Source of the DNA: Darksidea phi | Taxonomy: Eukaryota; Ascomycota; Dothideomycetes; Pleosporales; Lentitheciaceae | DNA: 64,000 bases | Assembly (NCBI GenBank): GCA_030770425.1 | Contig: JASJFT010000217.1 | Coordinates: forward strand, 1 to 64,000 | Direction: 5' to 3' | In this document: positions 4,439-63,042 of the stretch, piece after piece | Layout of the letters: every line of letters begins with the position of its first letter | How positions within the stretch are numbered: the first letter of the stretch is position 1 | Made by a program: the position numbers and the translations under genes | The notes under the pieces: model-generated | Databases searched by the model: none | What the model was told of the DNA's origin: nothing | The model's input: the letters and a program-made list of their open reading frames with translations, nothing else

Positions 4439-5405
4439 TCGCGTCCTCAAAAAAATGCTCAAACAGATTAACAGCCTCGAGCCGTCTATGAGAACCTTTG
4501 AATCGGAAGTTCTATAACATGTAAAGGGCCGGAATATGATAATAATAGTAGGATATTAGAGAAAGGAACATTAACGACATATCCAAGGTAATAACAGATA
4601 ATTTTAAGCTAACGATCCACCTAATCGTGCCCTTCTCAAACCCGCTTTAAAATCCAAAATCGAAAACCTAGATAAAGGTGCAAAAAACACAACCCGGAAC
4701 AATTTTTCGATGCTACAAATCTCCCTTTGCCTATTCACTTCCCGGTGGTGATTTGAGTTGTTTGTACTTGGGAGTATCGGTAATTTTACGTCCGAACCTG
4801 GTCGTACGGGATTCATCTGGAGAGGATGATGGGATATACTCTCGGCTATTGCCACCGGAACTCCTGCTCTTACTACGTGGCTTTTTCGGCGTTCGGACTT
4901 GAAGGCTACTAGTATCGCTACCGGCATCGCCTATTATTGCATTTATTAGCTAGGGAACCCTATCATATATAGGACCCCATTCACTCTGCTTGAGCACGGG
5001 CCCTATGCCCTCGGGTATATATAGGCCCTGAGTCCAGTACATAGATCAATCAACCAAGTACTTACTCTGCTCTATACTAAGAGCATTTCGACCTCGCTCT
5101 GGTGACCTTAGATCAGGTGTTCCACTGATAGGATAATCATTTCTAATAAGCGGAAGACTACCACCATCTTTACCATTATCTGCGCCAGCATCTCCGCCAC
5201 AATTACCCTCATCGCGGCCATCGTTCATATTAGGGCTTGTAGCGCCCTATCCAGGAGCTCTGCGGTTCCCTTTCTCTCGTTGATCAGCTTTACAGTAAGT
5301 TGATGACGATTCTCTGATGATTGGTCATGCATATCATGCGTATCATGCGTTTCTTGAATTTTCGATATTATCGAGAGGGAAATGCATTTGCAGGAGGTCG
5401 GTGCT
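4439..5405. other. Gene-poor, AT-rich interval; possible LTR remnant
   Basis: Frames are broken by many stops. Around 4950-5090 there is a TATATATAGG box followed by pyrimidine-rich sequence, which recalls the U3/R part of a fungal LTR. No second LTR, primer-binding site or polymerase fragment is seen. I support only 'probably degenerate repeat-derived sequence'. Confidence 0.3.
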
Positions 5406-5530
5406 ACTCCTCGCCATTTTCTTCACCCTCTCAGTATTCATTTTCGTCTTTGTCGTCACATACCAAACGAATAATCAACGCATCCTCGTCTCCATCGCGC
5501 AATCGGACGTCACCTACCCAGCCGATAAAT
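5406..5530 (+). pseudogene. Displaced exon fragment of the 20.2-21.0 kb membrane-protein gene
   Basis: This 125-bp block is colinear, without gaps, with 20708-20832 inside the last exon of the intact membrane-protein gene. I count five mismatches. It encodes the third hydrophobic helix and the TYQTNNQRILVSIAQ segment, then runs into TAA where the intact gene continues. Nothing upstream or downstream resembles the rest of the gene. It is therefore a recent partial duplication and not an expressed gene. The rest of 5531-5809 shows nothing. Confidence 0.85.
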
Positions 5531-5809
5531 AAACAAGTTTGGCACGTTGTAGACTAATTAAAGCCTGCCTAAATTCTGATGCCAGACTTTACAGAGCTTA
5601 GGACGCCGTTGCGGAAGCTCTTGCGCATTGGACAAGCGCAATAAAAGCAGTAATCGATAGATCACAAAGACAAGCACTTGAACTCCTGAGCAGAAAGTCA
5701 AAAATTTGTTCATCTACGCGATTCTTGACATATCCCTATCCCATCAGGGTTGACATGTACTCAGACCGCCCGTAGCATACGGCAATGGAGCTCTGTGCAA
5801 CGGCAATGA

Positions 5810-8806
5810 TCAAGGTTTCGGGCGATACCACTCAAGAGGCTGAAGAACGAGTCGTTCAAAGTTCTCATCGACTTTCTCTTTCGTTTTCCCATTCTCGCTT
5901 AGCAGACCCGAGAGGCATACCTCAACAGCACGGGCGTATGCGTCGCCAACGGTCGCTCTCAAATACGGAACCCAGTCTCGCAGCAGCAGGCTGCGCATGT
6001 CCTTACGGTCCATCGTATCATCTTTGAGCATTCCTTCCAGCGGAAACCACAAGCCAATCTCAAGAAGTACTAGACCAAGACCGTAGTAGTCATACTCTGC
6101 CTGGTACGGTGAAGTCGGGCGCGCATCTGTGTCCGCACCTGAATAATCCGGATGCCGATATCTAAATGTGACATCTATACTGTGCATTTTGTTCGAATAA
6201 GCAGAATCTCCTGGTCGGCTGTGCGAGAACCCAATTAGAGCCGGCGACCCTAAGCATTGCCGTCGCGGTGACCCTTGAACGGCCTCGGCGTGGTCCTCGT
6301 CACGGCTGCTGAAGAGCAGTACGTTATATGACGACACATTCTTGTGCCACCAATTGATCTTATGGAACTCAAAAAGAGCCGTTGCCAGGTTGCATGCCAG
6401 CGCAAGACGCTCATCCATGCTTAGGTAGACCATTCGCTCCCTGTCGAGGTCAATATGTTGTTTCAGCATATCGGCCAGAGATTGAACACTCGATTCGGCG
6501 CCGTCCGTGGAATGTGTGTCTGGAAAATGATACACTAGGCCGATCTTTTGCTTGCTTATATCGTGGTAAATGCCGGCACAGCTAAGTGCGCGGAAGTTTG
6601 CGGCACGTGATGGAGGCAGGCTCAGGACCTGTTGAAGTCCTCTGATCAGCTGCTCGCTCTTATCTTCATCATTATACTCCAACCCTATCTCCAATTCCTC
6701 GACGATGACGGATGAGATCGACTCCGGGAGGACAAGTGTTCCGATACGATAGGTTTGGACTAATTTCCTGCCGTTTCGCATATTGTCATCCATGACCGGA
6801 AACTTTACTTCTCGTGGATCCAACCTCCGGACAGTGCTATCAGACTTGTTGAAATGCCGTTGCACATTCTTAGCCGACAAGAGCATCTTGATGTTTTCAT
6901 TGGGCCCCGGCTGACCCTCTGAACCAGCACTGGATGTAGTGATCCCAGCATTTCCGGACACGGTAGGCAGGATCTTCAGCTCTGCAATCGTCCGAACACT
7001 CCTTTGGACACCCTCATCTAAGGTCGTCGAAAGCAGCTGGTTGTTCAACAGGCGTAATCTGGCTAACAGTGGATAGTCATGCGGAGCAGCTGCAGCTAGC
7101 AGTCTGAATTCTTCGCGGATATTGCAAACTGTGTCATAGGTTTGGGTGAACATGATGTCAGAGTGCAGAAATGTTGCAGTCGCATCCTCGCTGTTGCCGA
7201 TACGGCTAAGCCACTCAAGGAACACCTGCCTTTCGACAGCGTACTCGAGACGATCCTTGAGATGTAGAGCTAGCTCATCCATAGCAATTGACTTTGCTGA
7301 CTCTTTCAAGGCAATGCCCCGCAGACGGCAGAGGACCTTGCTTATCCCCAGCCTCTCAGATGGCTCAATGATCAGCATGTCTTTAATGAGTGCAACCAAA
7401 GCTTCATCAATCGCTGTGCGTTTCTTCATTTTGTCGTCCAGCCATTTCAGCATGTTGTTGTGAATCTGTCCACCGTGATGGAAGGATTTGAGGATCAACG
7501 TACTGTTCGTATGCTCAACATCGAACAGATAGCGCCGTTCGTCCTTGAAGTTGTCAACTGCTTTGGGGCCTCCCTTCATCCAGGCGAAAAGAACGGCGAG
7601 TATACCACCCAAAGACCAGATATCGCTTGCGGGGCCTATTTCTTTCCTGCTCATTGTTGTGAAGTCTCGCCCCTCTGGCGCATCAAAATAAGCATCCCGT
7701 TCAGGTGCGATTGTGCGGAGATCCTGTTCTGTGTCGCTCATCTTGGAAAGCCCGAAATCAGCGAGTATAAAACGTGCGCCGTCGACTAATATGTTTCGGG
7801 GTTTGAGGTCGTGATGGCATCCTATCAATCGGACGCTGAGGTCATCGTTACTGTAGTGGTGCAACTGCTCCAGAGCTGACACAAGACCGCAGAGAGCTAG
7901 ATATATAGCTTCGTCGTCACGGAATTCGAGGGGGCGGTCTTCAGATCGCAGCAAGTCGTGGAGGTCGCCACCTGCTGCTTCACGGAACAAGAAATTGTGC
8001 ATCCTGGCTTGCGTATAAGACCCGTACAGTTCCAGGATGCTGTCATGCCGCACCGCGTTGAGGAGGCGAAGGCAGCGAAGCTCTCCCTTGTATTCATCAT
8101 CTCCGCTCGTCTTCAGCTCCTTTCGTACTACCGTCATGCCCTTCATCAACAGCGGAAAAAGTCAGTACAACCATTTCATGCGGATCTCGCTTCACGATTT
8201 TGAACTTACATGCCGTTCATCTTCGTCATACTTGGGCGAAGGTAGTTTCTCTTTATAGACTTTGCCAAAGTGACCGCCCCATGGCTTCTTGGCTTCTTTG
8301 TCGGCGGTCTCGATGGCTTTGATGAAAGGAAGTCGGATTCGATCGGGGAAGCGTCGATGAGGAATCCCTAGCGGGAAAGTCGGGGTAAGAAAGGTGAACT
8401 GCGTCTCGATGAATGAATCCCTTAGGCCTTCGAGACCCTCGGTACTGTTTTTATCGTCCGATATGCCCAAGACTTCGTTCAGTTCCTCGGTATGCATAGG
8501 CAACTTATTGTCGGGACTTCCTTTATGAACCCCAGGATCCAGACGGAAGAAGTTATAAATCAGGTCCGGCTTTCCAATAAGGACCAGGGTAGCAAAGGTA
8601 CGCAGGCCATACGTGTGGATGTCTTTGGCTATGGAGCGGCGTTCATACTGTTCGATATTCTCTGTTTGGAGCAAGTGCTGGATTATTTCCGGGCTGCATA
8701 GGTCGGCCAGCCACTCGAATGGCACAAATTGAGCACCATCGCGATTCTTCCTGGATCGTAGGTAGATATCGCTCTGCAGCTGCGCAACCTGATCCGATTG
8801 CATCAT
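5810..8806 (-). CDS. Fungal protein kinase with C-terminal pseudokinase-like domain
   Basis: Two exons (8806-8210, 8140-5810; 69-bp intron with GTAAGT donor) give 975 aa. Residues ~1-175 match the N-terminal module seen before kinase domains in many Pezizomycotina proteins. A kinase domain follows: glycine loop GGHFGK (177-182), probable ATP-binding Lys206, catalytic HHDLKPRN (Asp310), DFG at 327-329 and SDIWSLGG at 371-378. A second kinase-like module near 770-960 has WWHKNVSSYNVLLF where the catalytic loop belongs, no catalytic Asp or DFG, and the LGLVLLEIGLW helix. That C-terminal type is found in HeLo/HET-S-related fungal proteins. So the protein pairs a probably active kinase with a pseudokinase. 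The first ATG after the last in-frame non-ATG stretch is at 8806; an extra 5' exon cannot be excluded. Role inferred: signalling, possibly self/non-self response. Confidence 0.82.
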
Positions 8807-46882: not shown

Positions 46883-49074
46883 TCATGATCCAATGCCGAT
46901 CTCATACCCAAGTAATACCTCTGTTGAACTCCCTTCCCAGCCTCTACTTCCACCTGCAGATATCATGAAGGTGCAAGTAGGATCAATGTACAGTTGCGAG
47001 ATGACACCAGTACGGTGCCCCGGAACAATCAAAAACGGCACGGCAGACTTCTCTATCTCCTGGTCGCGTAGATCATACAGGCGGAGAATATCATACGACG
47101 CACTAGACCAGTCAGCATCTTGTCAAAGGTTGCCCTGGGATAGTACTTACCAAACAAGGTGTCGACCATTCGGCATCGCACGAACAGCGCTCACAGCGCC
47201 ACTAACGCTGGGAAATTTGAAGGTCCTCCTAGGCTCTCTAAGCCCCTTGTGGAGGCTGTACTCGTCAACAGTCCCGTTTCTTCGTCCTGCATATATGAAA
47301 TTACCGTCCGGTGACCAGCAAGCGTTCATACACCACGGTGGAGTGTTTCGAGGGGGCGCAATTCGAGCTACTGGGGCTGATTGGCGCCGATCCCAAATTC
47401 GCAACGTCCCATCCATCGATGCATCCATAAAGGTAGTCTCAGATGAGGCTGGCTGCTCAGCTTGCGCCGAGCTCGTCCCCATGGAGCCTGAGATCTCCTC
47501 CGAATGAGGAAGGCCATTTGTAGTGGGGTGCGGCTGACTGTCGGCAACGCCGTTCACCGAGTCCTCGTTTTGCGCTGGAGCAGGCGGTTCTTTCAATACC
47601 TCCGCTTGATCCGGTTCTGGGGCTTGGACTGGTCCGCCAATGTCCATCATATCAAGGTCTGCTTGGGCGTCCTCCTCGTCGGCCTGCTGTATGCCGTTTG
47701 CAATAGCTCTTGAGAACTCATCTTCATCGTCATCCGCAAACGGTGCCAGGGCTGATGGGCCATTGGAGGGGTCCTTGTCGTCGCCAAACAACGAATCTTT
47801 GTCTCCAAATAATGAATCCTCAGGGGAACCAGCTGCATCCTCATTCCCATTCTCCACCTTAGTCTCAGGCTGTATAGAAGACCCAACACCATTGGAGAGG
47901 CCGTTTGCTTGCGGTCGAGAGGCATTGTTCGACGAGAAGGTTCCGCTTGAGACAGGCGCTATGTCGGTATCTTGGGGAATAGGCAACGTGGACAATGGCC
48001 GTTGCTCGATGGCCGAGATCTGCCCACCACTAGTTTGGAATTGTCTCTTCACCTGCCCTGTATTGAGGTCCCAGTCATTGATCGTCTTATCCCAGCTTCC
48101 AGACAATACCGACTTCTCATCCTGGGACAGCGTCAAGACCGACACAGCAGAAGTGTGCTGCCGCAACGTGTGTATCCGCTTGCCCTCTTCGTGACGTACC
48201 GATTGAAGGTTTATACCTCCAGACTCGACCCCAGACAAGAGCCATAGCGACTGATGGTGTACGGCGAGTGAGTATACCGGCGAGAGACTGGTGGAGTTGT
48301 CGCGTGGGCGGACTAGATAGGTCAGTCGGTGATTGTCGCACAACATCGGTGCATCGGCGTACCTGCATGGTCTTCGTTCTCCCAGTAGCTGAGAAGAACT
48401 CCTGCCTTGGTGACGCTGTCTACGAACGGATGACGTTGGGCCACGGTGAGGGCTAGCTTCCCGTTCACTGTATCGACCCAATTGAACCTTCTGATGTATC
48501 CGTCGGCGCCCCCACTGAATACCCACCGCATGTCCGGCGTTGAAGTGACGGCATTGATCGAGGTACTGTGAGGAGCGGCGATGGTAGGCACAATATCGTA
48601 CACGGGGGCATTAAGCGCCTCCTGACGGATGCTCGGTCGGAATGGCAGGCCGCCGGACAGGGAGGCAGCGCGCGGAGAGGGAGATGTGAGCGTGACGGTT
48701 GGATTGGTACCCGATCGCGACGGGCCCGGCGTAGAGGGGGCGCCGTTAGGAAGACCGTCTCGAGGTCGTTGCGACTGAGAAGGGCTGTCTGGCTCGTCCT
48801 GGTCTTCATCATCGTTGTCGCCGTTCGCGTCATCATCATCCCCATCTCCGTCGTCACCCTCTTCGTCTCCGTCTCCATCATCGCCGTCGGCGTCGGCATC
48901 TGCATCTGCATCTGCATCTCCATCTCCGTCGTCGACGTCGTCCATTACTTCGTCGGCGTCATTCTCCGAGCTAATGTCGGGGGAGCCTGATACAAGCAAT
49001 TAGCGGGGCAGGTCCTGACTATCGGAGGGCATGGGAGAGCAACCGGCGCCATTCTCGTCATCTTCAAAGTCCAT
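46883..49074 (-). CDS. SPT8: SAGA complex subunit Spt8 (WD40)
   Basis: Exons 49074-49044, 48986-48363, 48312-47151 and 47102-46883 give 678 aa. Spt8 is a WD40 propeller that links TBP to the SAGA coactivator. The acidic N-terminus includes an Asp-Ala run from a hexanucleotide repeat (48889-48921), followed by Ser/Pro-rich sequence. WD blades include SINAVTSTPDMRWVFSGGAD, YIRRFNW, SVLTLSQDEKSVLSGSWD, DASMDGTLRIWDRR and CWSPDGNFIYAGRRNGT. A long acidic insertion, typical of Spt8, lies between blades (~320-460). The last exon supplies CASYDILRLYDLR and the conserved C-terminus. The 31-nt first exon is joined by a 57-bp intron with a weaker donor (GTTGCT), so the extreme N-terminus is less certain. 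Confidence 0.9.
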
Positions 49075-50254: not shown

Positions 50255-53200
50255 ATGGTGAACAGGCGATCTACGAGACGGCACGGTGGGGCCGGTCAGG
50301 GCCGCAATGGGGGCTGGCGTGGGCCCGATGCGCAGAAGGAGAAGCAGTCGACAAACCCATACGCCTCTCTTGCCAACACCGGCGACGATGGTAAGAGCAT
50401 CCAGTCTACTCTCCATGTCCTTCAGCTCCCTGCACCCTGTCCTCTCCTCCTCCCAAGCTGTCAGCATCGGTCCATCCATTCATATCGACATGACCCACTC
50501 ATCGTTAGCAGGCGAGATGAACAGCCATCTAGCAGAGCGCTTTTCGGGCTATCGTTACCCCGACCCCGAACGCGTCCCGCTGTCTGCGCCGCCGCGCATG
50601 AATAACGACATTGCCAAATACTTCCAGGATGCGAAGAAAACTATTGTACGTATTCTCGACGTGCACACTAGGTGTCCCAAGATGCTTCGGAGTTCGGAAG
50701 AGCTTTACTGACTTTGTGACCCGCCTACTCAGTCTAATGCAGGTGCATGGCATGGCAAATCAGAAATCCCGCATCCATCGGAGATCGTTGCGCCGACAGC
50801 TCCAGGTTTCGTCTTTGCAGAGCAGATCATTGACCTCGAAGATGAGCTACGTCCCAATAAAGTCGAGGGTCCTTATGAGAACAACGAAGACTACTTACGC
50901 ACGCACTATGAGCTCCAGAGGGAAGATGCGGTCCGCCCATTGCGCGAAGCCGTCGCTGAAGTTCGGAAGGATCCCTGGCGCGACGAGCTGGATTATCCGC
51001 AGTCAAGCAACATTGGCATTTACGAGCCTACTTATATCACATCCGTGGTCTTCTCACCCCGTGGACTGGCTGTGAGAGTTGCGTTCTCCCTCAACCGAGT
51101 CAAGAAGTTCATTCGTTGGAAGCAATCCAAGCGCTTAATCACGGGAACGCTCGTTGCCTTGTCTCCAGCCGAGGATGCTTTTCAATCTCAGTGCATTCTG
51201 GCCACCGTCGCTGCGCGGCCGCTCTCATGCGTAGAGGCGGTAAATCCGCCGGAGCTTGATCTCTTCTTCGCACGTCTACAGGACTTCCAAATAGATCCGA
51301 TGCGTAAATGGATCATGGTAGAGTGTCGCTCGAGCTTCTACGAAGCGAGCCGACACACCCTACTTTCTCTGCAGCACATGATGCACGAGCCGTAAGGCGC
51401 CCTTCTCTCGGTTGAGAGTACACTGAAGCTAACTGCGAGTAGCTTTCCTCTCTCTGAACACCTCGTCAAGACAAAGAAGGATGTCGACCCTCCACTCTAC
51501 GTCCAAGACAACCCTTACACTGATATGAGCTCACTTGTCAGTATGGAAGAAGCTGAAGCGTTTCAGAACGTAAATATTCTTCAAGAATGGCCAGCGGGCA
51601 ATACCCACAGTCTGGACAAATCGCAATCGAAAGCTCTGAAGCGGATACTGAGCAAGCGCCTAGCCATCGTGTAAGTAGCGCAGGGTGGTGTTTTCGCCGA
51701 ATGCACAATCTAGTCGCGAGTCCCCAGAGATGTTTGCTGCGCTGGAAGCTTTTTGGATGAACCATAGTATCACTAGCTATCTGAACCTTACTAACTTTTC
51801 TTTCTAGGCAAGGACCACCTGGCACTGGCAAGACGTACGTCTCTGTCGTTGCCTTAAAGATATTGCTAGCCAATCTGCGCAAAGATGATCCGCCAATCAT
51901 CGTCACTTGTCAGACCAACCATGCTCTGGATCAGCTTCTTCGACACATTGCAGAGTTTGAGCCAAACTTTATCCGACTCGGAGGACGTTCAAAAGACAAG
52001 GACAAGATCAAGAAGCGCACGCTGTTCGAGGTCCGCTCAAACTATTCACAACCGAGCATTCCTGGCAACCGCAAGAATCAATCAATGGCACAAATAAGAC
52101 AGCTCACGCGCAAGATGCAGCTGTTGCTTGCGCCATTGGAAATGGGAAAGGGTTGCCTAGATCATCGTCTTCTAGTTCAGATGGGCTTGCTCACCGAAAA
52201 ACAAGCGGCGTCACTGGAGGTGGGAGCTGAATTCACCATGGGTACGTAACTTTTAAGCCCTAACGGTCGGCATCCCCTCGCCCTCGGTCTGCGTTAAATA
52301 TAGTTCTGGCTAGTCAAGCATCTCCCGGCTAGGCCATACACACAAAGACCTTCCTATCACTCGTTTTGAAATGCGCTGACTTTATACTCTCTAAAACAGG
52401 CATCGCTCAGGACACCCCTGGGATCCAGCTTGAGCAGTGGCTGGGGAAGTACCTTGTACGATGTCGTCGACCCATTCAACCGGACGACTTCGGCATGGCG
52501 TACGAAGAAGATGACTTCGTCGAGGCTGAACAAATTGAGGAACTGGAGGCGGAAGCTGTTGCTCGAGACGACGACGATATCGAGGCTCTCAAAGGACCAG
52601 TCACATTCCTAAGCGACAACCAGACTGGCAGGTGTGGTGCTTCAACTTTGAGGTCTGATGACAATGTTCGTGCTCTTCTAAGCAGAACCAAGGATCTCAC
52701 CACCGTCCCCGTGCGTGATCGCGGTGTGATTTACAAATACCTGCTGGACCAGACGAAGCAAAAAATTCTGAAGGAATTTCGGGAGCTTGCGGCACAGTAT
52801 GAAAATCTCGTACTTCATCGCAAAATCGGTCAATGGGAGCAAGATCAGCGCTTGCTACTCGAACAACGTCTTATCGGTAGGTAACTCACGTCTTTCTCGC
52901 ATAAAATCGCGTACATCCTTGTGGATAATTTATACTGACGCTATACCACTTGTTTTAGGCATGACCACGACGGGTTTAAGCAAGTATCGTGGTCTCATTG
53001 CAAGTCTGAGGCCGAGGGTCGTCCTCGTTGAAGAGGCGGCTGAAACCCTTGAAGCCCCAGTCGCGGCTGCATGTGTACCTAGCCTGGAGCACCTGATTCT
53101 GGTCGGCGACCACCAGCAACTACGACCTCACTGTCAACTCCATGCCTTTGAAGACGAACCCTATTATTTCAATCTGTCCCTTTTCGAGCGCATGGTCATC

Positions 53201-54893
53201 AACAACATTGATATTGACTGTTTGGTCCGCCAACGCCGCATGGTTCCAGAGATTCGGCGCCTTCTAGAACCTATCTACGGCAACACCCTGAAGGATCATC
53301 ACAGCGTTACCAATGTGGACAATCGCCCTCCGGTGGAAGGCATGGGGGGGTGCAACTCATTCTTCTTCACCCACGATTGGCCTGAGTCACGGAATCACAA
53401 CATGTCAGCTTTCAATGAGAGAGAGGCCGACATGATTGTTGGTCTATTCAGCTACTTGGCCCTGAACGGCGTGGAGCCGTCAAAGATCACGGTATTAACA
53501 TTTTACAACGGCCAGCGTGAGCTCCTGCACAAGAAGTTGAGATCCCACGAAAATCTCCGCGGCAACGTCTTCCACGTCGTGACGGTTGATTCTTACCAGG
53601 GTGAAGAGAATGATATCGTCTTACTGTCGCTTGTGCGTAGTAACAAAAAACGCACCATTGGGTTTCTCTCGGTCGACAATCGTGTTTGTGTAGCTTTGTC
53701 CCGTGCTAAGCGCGGCTTCTACATCTTCGGCAATGCCGAGATGCTTGCGTGCGAGAGCAATACGTGGGAACACGTGGTGAGGATCTTGTGGGGTAGGGAG
53801 AAGAAGAGGAGCGAACTTCCTGCGCCGGCTTGTCGCATCGGCTACCAATTTCCCCTCGAGTGTACCAAACATGGAAGGAAGACTTGGATCGATGCCCCTG
53901 GGGGTTGGGAGTTGGTCAATGGAGGTTGCGATAAACCATGTCGATGCCTACTACCATGTGGCCACGTCTGCATGCTCAATTGTCATCCGTAAGTACTTAC
54001 CTCTGAAAGAGGGGTATGGCTGTGAAGGCTCTCTCGCTCATCTAGACATTACTAACACAACTAGCTTTGACAATGACCGAATCAATTGCACCCAGAAATG
54101 CAATAAGCGGGTCCCTACATGTGGTCATCCATGTGCTCAGATGTGCTGTGACTCATGCAAGTGTACGTAACTCCGTGGCGAAAGTCGAGGTTTTCTAGTT
54201 TGGAGCACGTTGCGTTATTCAATACAATGTGGCTTCTAGCCTGAGAACCTAGGCACTGACACTCCTCGGAATGTGACTTGCTAATTTGTACCGACAAATT
54301 CAGGCATGATCTGCGAGCATCGGAATAATGGGGTGAAGTCCATGCTGAAGCCCGCTCAGACGAACGGTGCAAACACCGGTGTCTTCAAAAATAGCCCGCA
54401 ACATGCACTCTTCAACATCTTACACGTTCCGCAGACTCTAGCGCCTCCGGAGGATTCTGGCAACACAGCGCAAAAATGGAAGGTAAGTCATTGTACTTTA
54501 TAGGGACTGTCCGAGTTCGCGGTACCATCCGTTAGCTGGATTTTCCGAGGCACATGCTGACCCATTCGTCTGATTTAGGCATACGCCGATGGAGGCGCGA
54601 AGGTAGAGGATGCTCAGATGCTGCGGAAGGCGAGAGAAGATGAGGCGAAGTTCTTCGCGATGCTATCGAACGCTGAGCAGCCGGAAGCAGCACCGCAGTC
54701 TGGTAGGCTCGTGGAGCTCTCTCCTAAAAATACAACCGAGAATACGGACTTACTAATCGATTTCGGTACGGATGCTCTGCCGTCTAAGGGGCGCGTTAGT
54801 TACATGGAAACGTTTACGTATGCCGTCGCCACTAGGGGTGCAACCCCTAAGAAGGAGAAGGAGAACGCGGCCGTGCTGAATCTGCTCGATTAG
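50255..54893 (+). CDS. NFX1-type zinc-finger RNA helicase (Hrr1/SAD-3 type)
   Basis: Ten exons (50255-50390, 50512-50645, 50733-51391, 51443-51670, 51808-52241, 52400-52876, 52959-53988, 54065-54162, 54304-54482, 54579-54893) join in frame to 1229 aa. It is a superfamily 1 Upf1-like helicase: motif I GPPGTGKT (388-395), an SF1 motif II variant VEEAAE (713-718), GDHQQLRP, QRRMVPEI, TVDSYQGEENDIV and VALSRAKRG. An acidic insertion of ~80 residues separates motifs Ia and II. After the helicase core come Cys/His clusters (CRCLLPCGHVC, CGHPCAQMCCDSC) of NFX1 type. Hrr1 works with RNA-dependent RNA polymerase in fission yeast heterochromatin; the Neurospora homologue SAD-3 is needed for meiotic silencing. 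The orthology is inferred from architecture. Confidence 0.88.
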
Positions 54894-62909: not shown

Positions 62910-63030
62910 GGGCTTGTGGTTTAGTGGTATAATTTTCCCTTAGCATGGGAAAGGTCCTGGGTTCGAGTACGTTGAAGCTTCTAGATGTCTAGAGACGAAT
63001 TACTGACATGCATAGTTCCCAGCAAGTCCA
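62910..63030 (+). tRNA. tRNA-Ala(AGC) interrupted in the T-loop by a GT-AG insert
   Basis: The 5' part (62910-62966) has acceptor strand GGGCTTG, a perfect A box TGGTTTAGTGG (62917-62927), anticodon stem TTCCC/GGGAA with loop TTAGCAT (anticodon AGC, 62942-62944), and T-stem strand CTGGG followed by TTCGA. The 3' part (63016-63030) is TT, CCCAG and CAAGTCC plus discriminator A, which pair with the T-stem and acceptor. Between them lie 49 bp (62967-63015) that begin GTACGT, carry ACTGAC at 63002-63007 and end TAG. Removing them gives a canonical seven-base T-loop and a perfect B box. The D-stem is weak (one U-U pair). It could be a functional gene with a novel intron or a tRNA pseudogene. Confidence 0.8.
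62967..63015 (+). other. 49-bp spliceosomal-intron-like insert within tRNA-Ala
   Basis: The donor GTACGT is identical to donors of several protein-gene introns in this window (20622, 40197, 52242, 54163, 59665 on plus; 35839 on minus). The branch-like CTGAC puts the A at 63006, nine bases before the final TAG. Length 49 is within the window's intron range. tRNA introns of eukaryotic nuclei normally sit one base 3' of the anticodon and are cut by the TSEN endonuclease, so this position and these borders are atypical. Confidence 0.65.
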
Positions 63031-63036
63031 ATGACC

Positions 63037-63042
63037 TTTTTT
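63037..63042 (+). terminator. Pol III terminator of tRNA-Ala
   Basis: A run of six T starts seven bases after the discriminator base of the interrupted tRNA gene, the usual place and form of an RNA polymerase III stop signal. Confidence 0.7.

Follow-up and report, generated by a model that had tools for sequence, protein, structure and literature searches.

GT-AG introns in tRNA genes of Darksidea phi, including one in the T-loop of a tRNA-Ala gene

A tRNA-Ala gene with an insert in its T-loop

We describe here a tRNA-Ala(AGC) gene of Darksidea phi in which a 49 bp insert with the borders of an mRNA intron separates two parts of the T-loop. The gene lies at 62910-63030 of the window, by which we mean the whole 64,000-nucleotide stretch of DNA that was analysed (contig C132), and it has no intron at 37/38. 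Its features are as follows.

62910..62966, plus strand: tRNA-Ala(AGC) exon 1, 57 bases (acceptor 5' strand, D arm, anticodon arm, 5' T-stem, T-loop 54-58)
62917..62927, plus strand: A-box-like stretch inside exon 1
62960..62970, plus strand: B-box-like GGTTCGAGTAC, spanning the exon/donor border, with 10 of 11 consensus letters
62967..63015, plus strand: T-loop intron at 58/59, 49 bp, GTACGT...ACTGACATGCATAG, 3' end ATAG
63003..63007, plus strand: CTGAC branch motif, its A at 63006 and then nine bases to the intron end
63016..63030, plus strand: tRNA-Ala exon 2, 15 bases (T-loop 59-60, T-stem 3' strand, acceptor 3' strand, discriminator A)
63037..63042, plus strand: T6 run, the likely Pol III terminator

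Exon 1 also contains most of the B box. In the joined exons the acceptor, anticodon and T stems are fully paired, with one G-U, and three of the four D stem positions pair; the G3-U70 pair usual in tRNA-Ala is present. The first-pass annotation had described intact and pairing tRNA parts, an insert between T-loop positions 58 and 59, a GTACGT donor, a CTGAC with nine bases after its A, a terminal TAG and a T6 run behind the gene. The insert coordinates are confirmed to the base, the signals and the T6 run are where they were placed, and the pairing is complete in all stems other than the D stem. On the unspliced gene ARAGORN reports only a malformed tRNA-Ala (62910-62981), the Rfam model RF00005 scores 19.9 bits against a cut-off of 29, and the cloverleaf score is 13.4, compared with 24.6 for the joined exons. 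The 72 joined bases match the exons of two other Ala(AGC) genes, on contigs C429 and C79, without exception (72/72).

The position of the excision was examined in two ways. Among 5124 possible excisions of 35-90 bases, the top cloverleaf score is common to three placements one base apart, one of which is GT..AG, in agreement with the earlier claim that excision at the GT and AG borders restores the T-loop, T-stem and B box. Across the window, 143 excisions (92 on the plus strand and 51 on the minus) fit a GT..AG and branch rule that was composed after the finding was known, and just one of them, the 62967-63015 intron, gives an ARAGORN tRNA spanning the junction; among 154 excisions in reversed and complemented controls there are none. 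A reading as a self-splicing group I or group II intron sets 49 bp against a catalytic core of hundreds of bases, and a cmscan comparison with all Rfam families returned no window match at gathering score.

Further GT-AG introns in tRNA genes of the genome

A check for recurrence in the same genome (51,351,393 bases in 477 contigs) found 12 further introns in 11 further tRNA genes. Eleven nuclear tRNA genes that appear intact (Ala twice, Gln, initiator Met, Lys, His, Leu, Glu, Val, and Arg twice) carry GT-AG inserts outside 37/38, as does one damaged Arg gene, giving 13 introns in 12 genes, of which 12 introns are independent. With positions numbered by hand, the insertion sites are 58/59, after 20, 28/29, 30/31, 34/35, 45/46, 49/50, 51/52, 52/53, 53/54 and 54/55, so that mRNA-type introns occur in the D-loop, anticodon stem, anticodon, variable loop, T-stem and T-loop of the tRNA genes of this fungus.

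The carriers were reached by several routes. A DNA search with the joined window gene led to the two other Ala(AGC) genes, of which the one on C429 has a canonical 29-base intron only, and the one on C79 has a canonical 30-base intron together with a 54-base GTAAGC...TACTAAC...TTAG in the T-stem at 52/53. An Rfam tRNA scan at E<=10 gave 59 matches, and three of the seven weak ones that were inspected carry GT-AG inserts: Gln(TTG) on C149, with a canonical intron and GTATGT...TACTAAC...GAAG at 53/54; initiator Met on C312 (L077), with a 53-bp GTGAGT...GCTAAT...GTAG at 54/55; and Lys(TTT) on C436, with GTAAGT...TTTAAC...ATAG at 28/29. The other four were set aside, L074, L076 and L080 as Ser-like repeats and L079 as a decayed Ala-like copy. 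We note that L074 and L076 also have their downstream DNA in common and look like a SINE-like, tRNA-derived repeat family, and that a Thr(TGT) gene (L028, C51:47971-48038, minus strand; locus positions ~501-568) has a T-loop some four bases short and is otherwise intact by eye. The RF00005 scan scored only 63 of 1735 candidates and overlooked an ordinary Pro gene, and isoacceptors absent from it are therefore no evidence by themselves.

Pattern searches supplied further carriers. The pattern CTAAC..GTTCGA has 20 matches, and the 14 inspected comprise six tRNA genes with GT-AG inserts (His C16, Leu C85, Arg C124 and Glu C445, and again those on C79 and C149), one canonical tRNA and seven sequences that are not tRNA by eye. 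The pattern is not enriched, and its match count proves nothing alone, because the reversed control had 29 matches. A second CTAAC-type pattern has two matches (control 14), and the one inspected is Val(CAC) on C78. The pattern CTGAC..GTTCGA has 20 matches (control 14), and the five inspected include no convincing tRNA. One of them, C434:152195 in L109 (C434:152040-152280, plus strand), has CTGAC...CCCAG followed directly by TTCGAGTCC and tRNA-like ends, GGTCACC and GGTGATC, that pair, but by eye no cloverleaf is apparent and no excision gave back a T-stem. His(GTG) on C16 has a 66-base insert at 53/54, Glu(TTC) on C445 a 50-base insert at 51/52 in addition to a canonical intron, and Val(CAC) on C78 a 50-base insert in the D-loop. 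Arg(ACG) on C124, with a 50-base insert at 45/46, is damaged at its 5' end and is counted as damaged only.

Two further Arg(ACG) copies, reached by DNA search, lie 14 kb apart on C9 in opposite directions (L115, C9:124470-124700, and L116, C9:109900-110140). Each has a 51-base GTAAGT...CTAAT...GTAG inside the anticodon stem at 30/31 and a canonical 10-base intron. Formally, the two introns of a C9 gene could be treated as one 61-base canonical intron (cloverleaf score 24.1 versus 25.3), but the anticodon would then be non-Arg, and in the C124 and C423 Arg copies the sequence CTTGACTACGA is unbroken. The copies differ at three places in their introns (two in the GT-AG intron and one in the canonical intron) and at three just upstream, with no difference in the exons. 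The pair is a duplication of recent date, from which the pace of intron change could be dated.

Leu(CAA) on C85 is the one gene with two inserts of this kind. The second is 51 bases long and lies in the T-stem at 49/50. The first is an apparent 52-base GTTAGA...GCTAAT...TTAG between anticodon positions 34 and 35, recognised in part by its branch motif. With it removed the loop is CTCAAGC, the anticodon is CAA, and the canonical intron that follows contains GCTTG, complementary to CAAGC; with it retained the loop would read CTCGTT, and the 3' part of the gene, from T-stem to discriminator, equals that of Leu(CAG). The structure scan puts other excisions first (up to 25.6 versus 24.2) and is ambiguous here because the canonical intron length is free, and the anticodon stem after excision has either a U-U mismatch or two G-U pairs. 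We regard this insert as a probable GT-AG intron. A Leu(CAA)-like pseudogene (L114, C140:69080-69380, minus strand) is without the T-stem intron, and its likeness to the C85 gene begins near the 3' end of the C85 anticodon intron.

Intron anatomy and alternative explanations

The 13 introns are 49-66 bp long and all are GT..AG. A branch motif is present in every one, with 9-12 bases from its A to the intron end, and has the form CTRAY in 12; the Lys intron is without CTRAY, and its TTAAC was found once the looser TTRAY was allowed. The introns of His, Glu, Arg C124 and Val and the second of Leu were found via CTAAC patterns, but five (Ala C79, Gln, initiator Met, Lys and Arg C9) were met without any splice-signal query, and the branch distance is 10-11 in all five. 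The donor is GTRNGT in 9 of the 12 independent introns, the exceptions being GTAAGC, GTTAGA and GTTAGT, of which GTTAGA (Leu) and GTTAGT (Glu) are weak.

The tRNA fold locates most of the borders independently of these signals. In eight independent genes (Ala C132, Ala C79, Gln, initiator Met, Lys, His, Glu and Arg C9; nine with both Arg copies) the GT-AG excision is among one to four equal best of 5124-6917, although the scan is mildly circular in that canonical intron length, where such an intron is present, was preset from the GT-AG-spliced form. Structure does not fix the borders in Val and Arg C124, the GT-AG excision having rank 15 of 4116 in the former and 17 of 5628 in the latter, nor those of the first Leu intron. 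After excision the cloverleaf score is 23.3-27.0 in 11 genes, with single mismatches in some stems, and 17.0 in Arg C124.

Four mRNA introns of the window, placed via homologous proteins, allow comparison with the splice signals of the host:

48313..48362, minus strand: SPT8 mRNA intron, 50 bp, GTACGC...ACTGACCTATCTAG (GTACGC..ACTGAC..CTAG); joined exons in frame with homologues
51671..51807, plus strand: Hrr1-like helicase mRNA intron, 137 bp, GTAAGT...TTACTAAC...TCTAG; in frame
52242..52399, plus strand: Hrr1-like helicase mRNA intron, 158 bp, GTACGT...GCTGAC...AAACAG; in frame
52877..52958, plus strand: Hrr1-like helicase mRNA intron, 82 bp, GTAGGT...ACTGAC...TTTTAG; in frame

All four have the same signals as the tRNA introns, at branch distances of 9, 13, 20 and 20. 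The three helicase introns are unlike the tRNA introns in other respects, being 82-158 bases long with T4 or T5 runs and a branch 13 or 20 bases from the end. The SPT8 protein (47147-48610) shares 82-84% identity with Massarina, Didymosphaeria and Kalmusia proteins and 91% with a metagenome record; by this one protein the host belongs to the Pleosporales and most likely to the Massarineae. The helicase gene (51671-53992, plus strand) has at least three introns and matches 'helicase required for RNAi-mediated heterochromatin assembly 1'. No T run in the GT-AG tRNA introns is longer than three, as would fit Pol III; avoidance of T4 was considered as a mark of Pol III and set aside, since the probability of finding none is 0.0235 in mononucleotide shuffles and 0.175 in dinucleotide shuffles, which is not significant.

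Removal of eukaryotic nuclear tRNA introns is ascribed to TSEN and ligase, and one alternative is that the inserts are TSEN-type introns at unusual positions, cut at bulge-helix-bulge (BHB) motifs as in the red alga Cyanidioschyzon and in archaea. There is precedent for the positions: excerpts of PMC4090602 describe non-canonical tRNA introns in Cyanidioschyzon, algal nucleomorphs and archaea, in D, anticodon and T arms and several per gene, with archaeal sites including 30/31, 45/46 and 53/54, and a passage of PMC9602550 describes one Cyanidioschyzon tRNA-Ile with introns in all three arms. However, the Cyanidioschyzon and archaeal introns are tied in these excerpts to BHB motifs and the nucleomorph introns are very short, whereas a BHB central helix of four pairs is found in none of the 13 inserts here, and one of three pairs in two, by a simple pairing test. 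The portions of the nucleomorph RNA literature consulted contain no spliceosomal tRNA intron. TSEN cleavage would also leave the GT..AG borders and branch motif unexplained: among 18 canonical introns of this genome called by ARAGORN the branch motif occurs in none and GT..AG in one. These canonical introns are 10-35 bases as called, compared with 49-66 for the inserts; they derive from 34 loci given and 19 introns called, L115 having been dropped as its call spans the GT-AG insert, and several bear wrong isotypes, which makes their borders rough. The window intron, moreover, is at 58/59, and the eukaryotic TSEN site is 37/38. We consider a TSEN origin of the inserts very unlikely, and the first-pass assignment of the window intron to the spliceosomal form is supported by the anatomy of the insert and by the recurrence of GT-AG inserts in other tRNA genes.

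A different proposal is that mobile DNA or an introner family entered tRNA genes and carried splice sites incidentally; introner-like elements are reported from fungi, to judge from a title cited in PMC11889510. The first-pass annotation had proposed a search of the same genome for introner-like copies of the 49 bp, and this found none besides the insert itself. Among 78 intron pairs compared, there is a clear likeness only between the introns of the duplicated Arg genes (z = 14.3), with one more pair at z = 3.0, and the empty initiator Met site described below has no target duplication by eye. Judged by these copy and pairwise tests the GT-AG tRNA introns are not an introner family, and we regard that proposal as scarcely probable; it concerns origin, and spliceosomal removal would remain compatible with it.

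Function, proposed pathway and relation to known systems

The genes differ in how strongly they argue for function. For Ala(AGC), initiator Met and His there are other genes that lack a GT-AG intron, and the interrupted copies of these three may be dispensable; for the window gene this follows from the C429 gene, which carries a canonical intron only. For initiator Met, once the 53-bp intron is taken out of the C312 gene, the entire intron-free C334 gene is found within it without a single difference, and the empty site is directly visible. Uninterrupted copies of Gln(TTG), Lys(TTT), Glu(TTC) and Val(CAC) were not found by a genome DNA search that reaches close copies only (the Lys(TTT) query did not recover Lys(CTT) genes) in an assembly that may lack genes, and Arg(ACG) without the GT-AG intron is present only in the 5'-damaged copy on C423. 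By decoding rules Lys(TTT), Gln(TTG), Glu(TTC) and Arg(ACG) are hard to replace, and the stronger functional case is that of Gln, Lys, Glu, Val and Arg rather than Ala.

As a raw count, the best B-box match has 9-11 of 11 consensus letters in all 10 genes examined; it is 9/11 in Gln, and the best Gln and initiator Met matches fall within the intron. Each of the 10 also has a T4 or longer run that starts within 14 bases, again as a raw count, and the predicted Pol III transcripts of the interrupted genes are 121-211 bases long. We also note that the C312 initiator Met intron splits the B box yet holds a B-box-like TGTTCGATTCC (10/11), which may preserve an internal promoter.

The interrupted copies could instead be pseudogenes with insertions, their GT-AG look being part chance and part selection by the analyst. 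Short D- and T-arm insertions in eukaryotic tRNA genes mostly affect one of many synonymous genes and are supposed to mark pseudogenes, according to excerpts of PMC4090602; damaged copies exist here (Arg C124, Arg C423 and Leu C140), the damaged 5' end of Arg C124 shows that a GT-AG intron is no guarantee of a working gene, and the CTAAC pattern was outnumbered by its reversed control. Yet the exons are identical or well paired while the inserts are not, and four isoacceptors have no other copy within reach of the DNA search for close copies. Ala C79, Gln, initiator Met and Lys, found without splice signals, are all GT..AG at structure-fixed borders, for which the chance is ~4e-9 with 4, 2, 1 and 2 placements, the canonical length in Ala C79 and Gln being taken from the GT-AG-spliced form. 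We think it very improbable that the set is explained in this way.

The reading that we prefer, and hold with considerable confidence from the sequence, is that the window gene is a functional nuclear tRNA-Ala, transcribed by Pol III, with a U2-type spliceosomal intron in its T-loop, and is one of a set. In the pathway that we infer, the nascent pre-tRNA would be bound as a short intron-defined unit, with the donor pairing to U1, the CTRAY branch to U2 and the AG nearby; the GT-AG intron would be spliced in the nucleus, and the T-arm would fold only afterwards. RNase P, tRNase Z and, where a 37/38 intron is present, TSEN would act after the spliceosomal step, as splicing should precede end trimming and TSEN because most of the introns break the T-arm or anticodon arm. 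The introns may have originated by gain, for example by reverse splicing.

We also favour, though with less assurance, a broader interpretation in which there has been a spread of spliceosomal introns across the nuclear tRNA genes of a filamentous ascomycete. Decoding of at least CAA, AAA, GAA and CGU/CGC would then be spliceosome-dependent, and the Ala C79, Gln, Glu, Arg and Leu pre-tRNAs would need both the spliceosome and TSEN, in Leu(CAA) in a fixed order because the GT-AG intron lies inside the anticodon. If these introns are indeed removed by splicing, the supply of tRNA is coupled to the spliceosome, Pol III transcripts are spliceosome substrates at many tRNA sites, and tRNA finders that expect 37/38 introns will overlook genes. 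With twins that have the same exons but lack the intron, recent intron gain can be put to a direct test, and exact splicing has a strict read-out in the tRNA fold.

The intron type itself is familiar, but we know of no earlier example of a spliceosomal intron in tRNA genes. The matches listed in the searched open-licence literature include no report of spliceosomal introns in nuclear tRNA genes, which is not proof of absence. The nearest parallels are in other non-coding genes. GT-AG introns occur in U3 snoRNA genes of many fungi, Dothideomycetes included (PMC5832005), and as here the host is a structured non-coding RNA with intron-bearing and intron-free copies within one genome; the U3 introns, however, average 92 in length and are nearly all in one 5' stem-loop, whereas those in the tRNA genes are at many places. 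Ascomycete nuclear rDNA has spliceosomal introns (Bhattacharya 2000 and Cubero 2000, cited in passages of PMC8527467 and PMC11889510), and excerpts of PMC8527467 report that those of lichen fungi are removed and that yeast can splice one from Pol I rRNA. These too are mRNA-type introns, one of 57 bp, in a non-coding, non-Pol II gene, although the host is a Pol I rRNA and not a tRNA. The U6 gene of fission yeast has an mRNA-type intron that is spliced out (Tani and Ohshima 1989, cited in a passage of PMC10484740) and is thought there to have arisen by reverse splicing; in the present genome the one U6 gene above the family cut-off (L107, C179:23388-23487, plus strand) is full-length with no intron. 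The fission yeast gene resembles the tRNA genes described here in having an mRNA-type intron in a short, structured Pol III RNA, but U6 is itself spliceosomal, which offers a route for reverse splicing, whereas the hosts here are tRNA genes of many isotypes.
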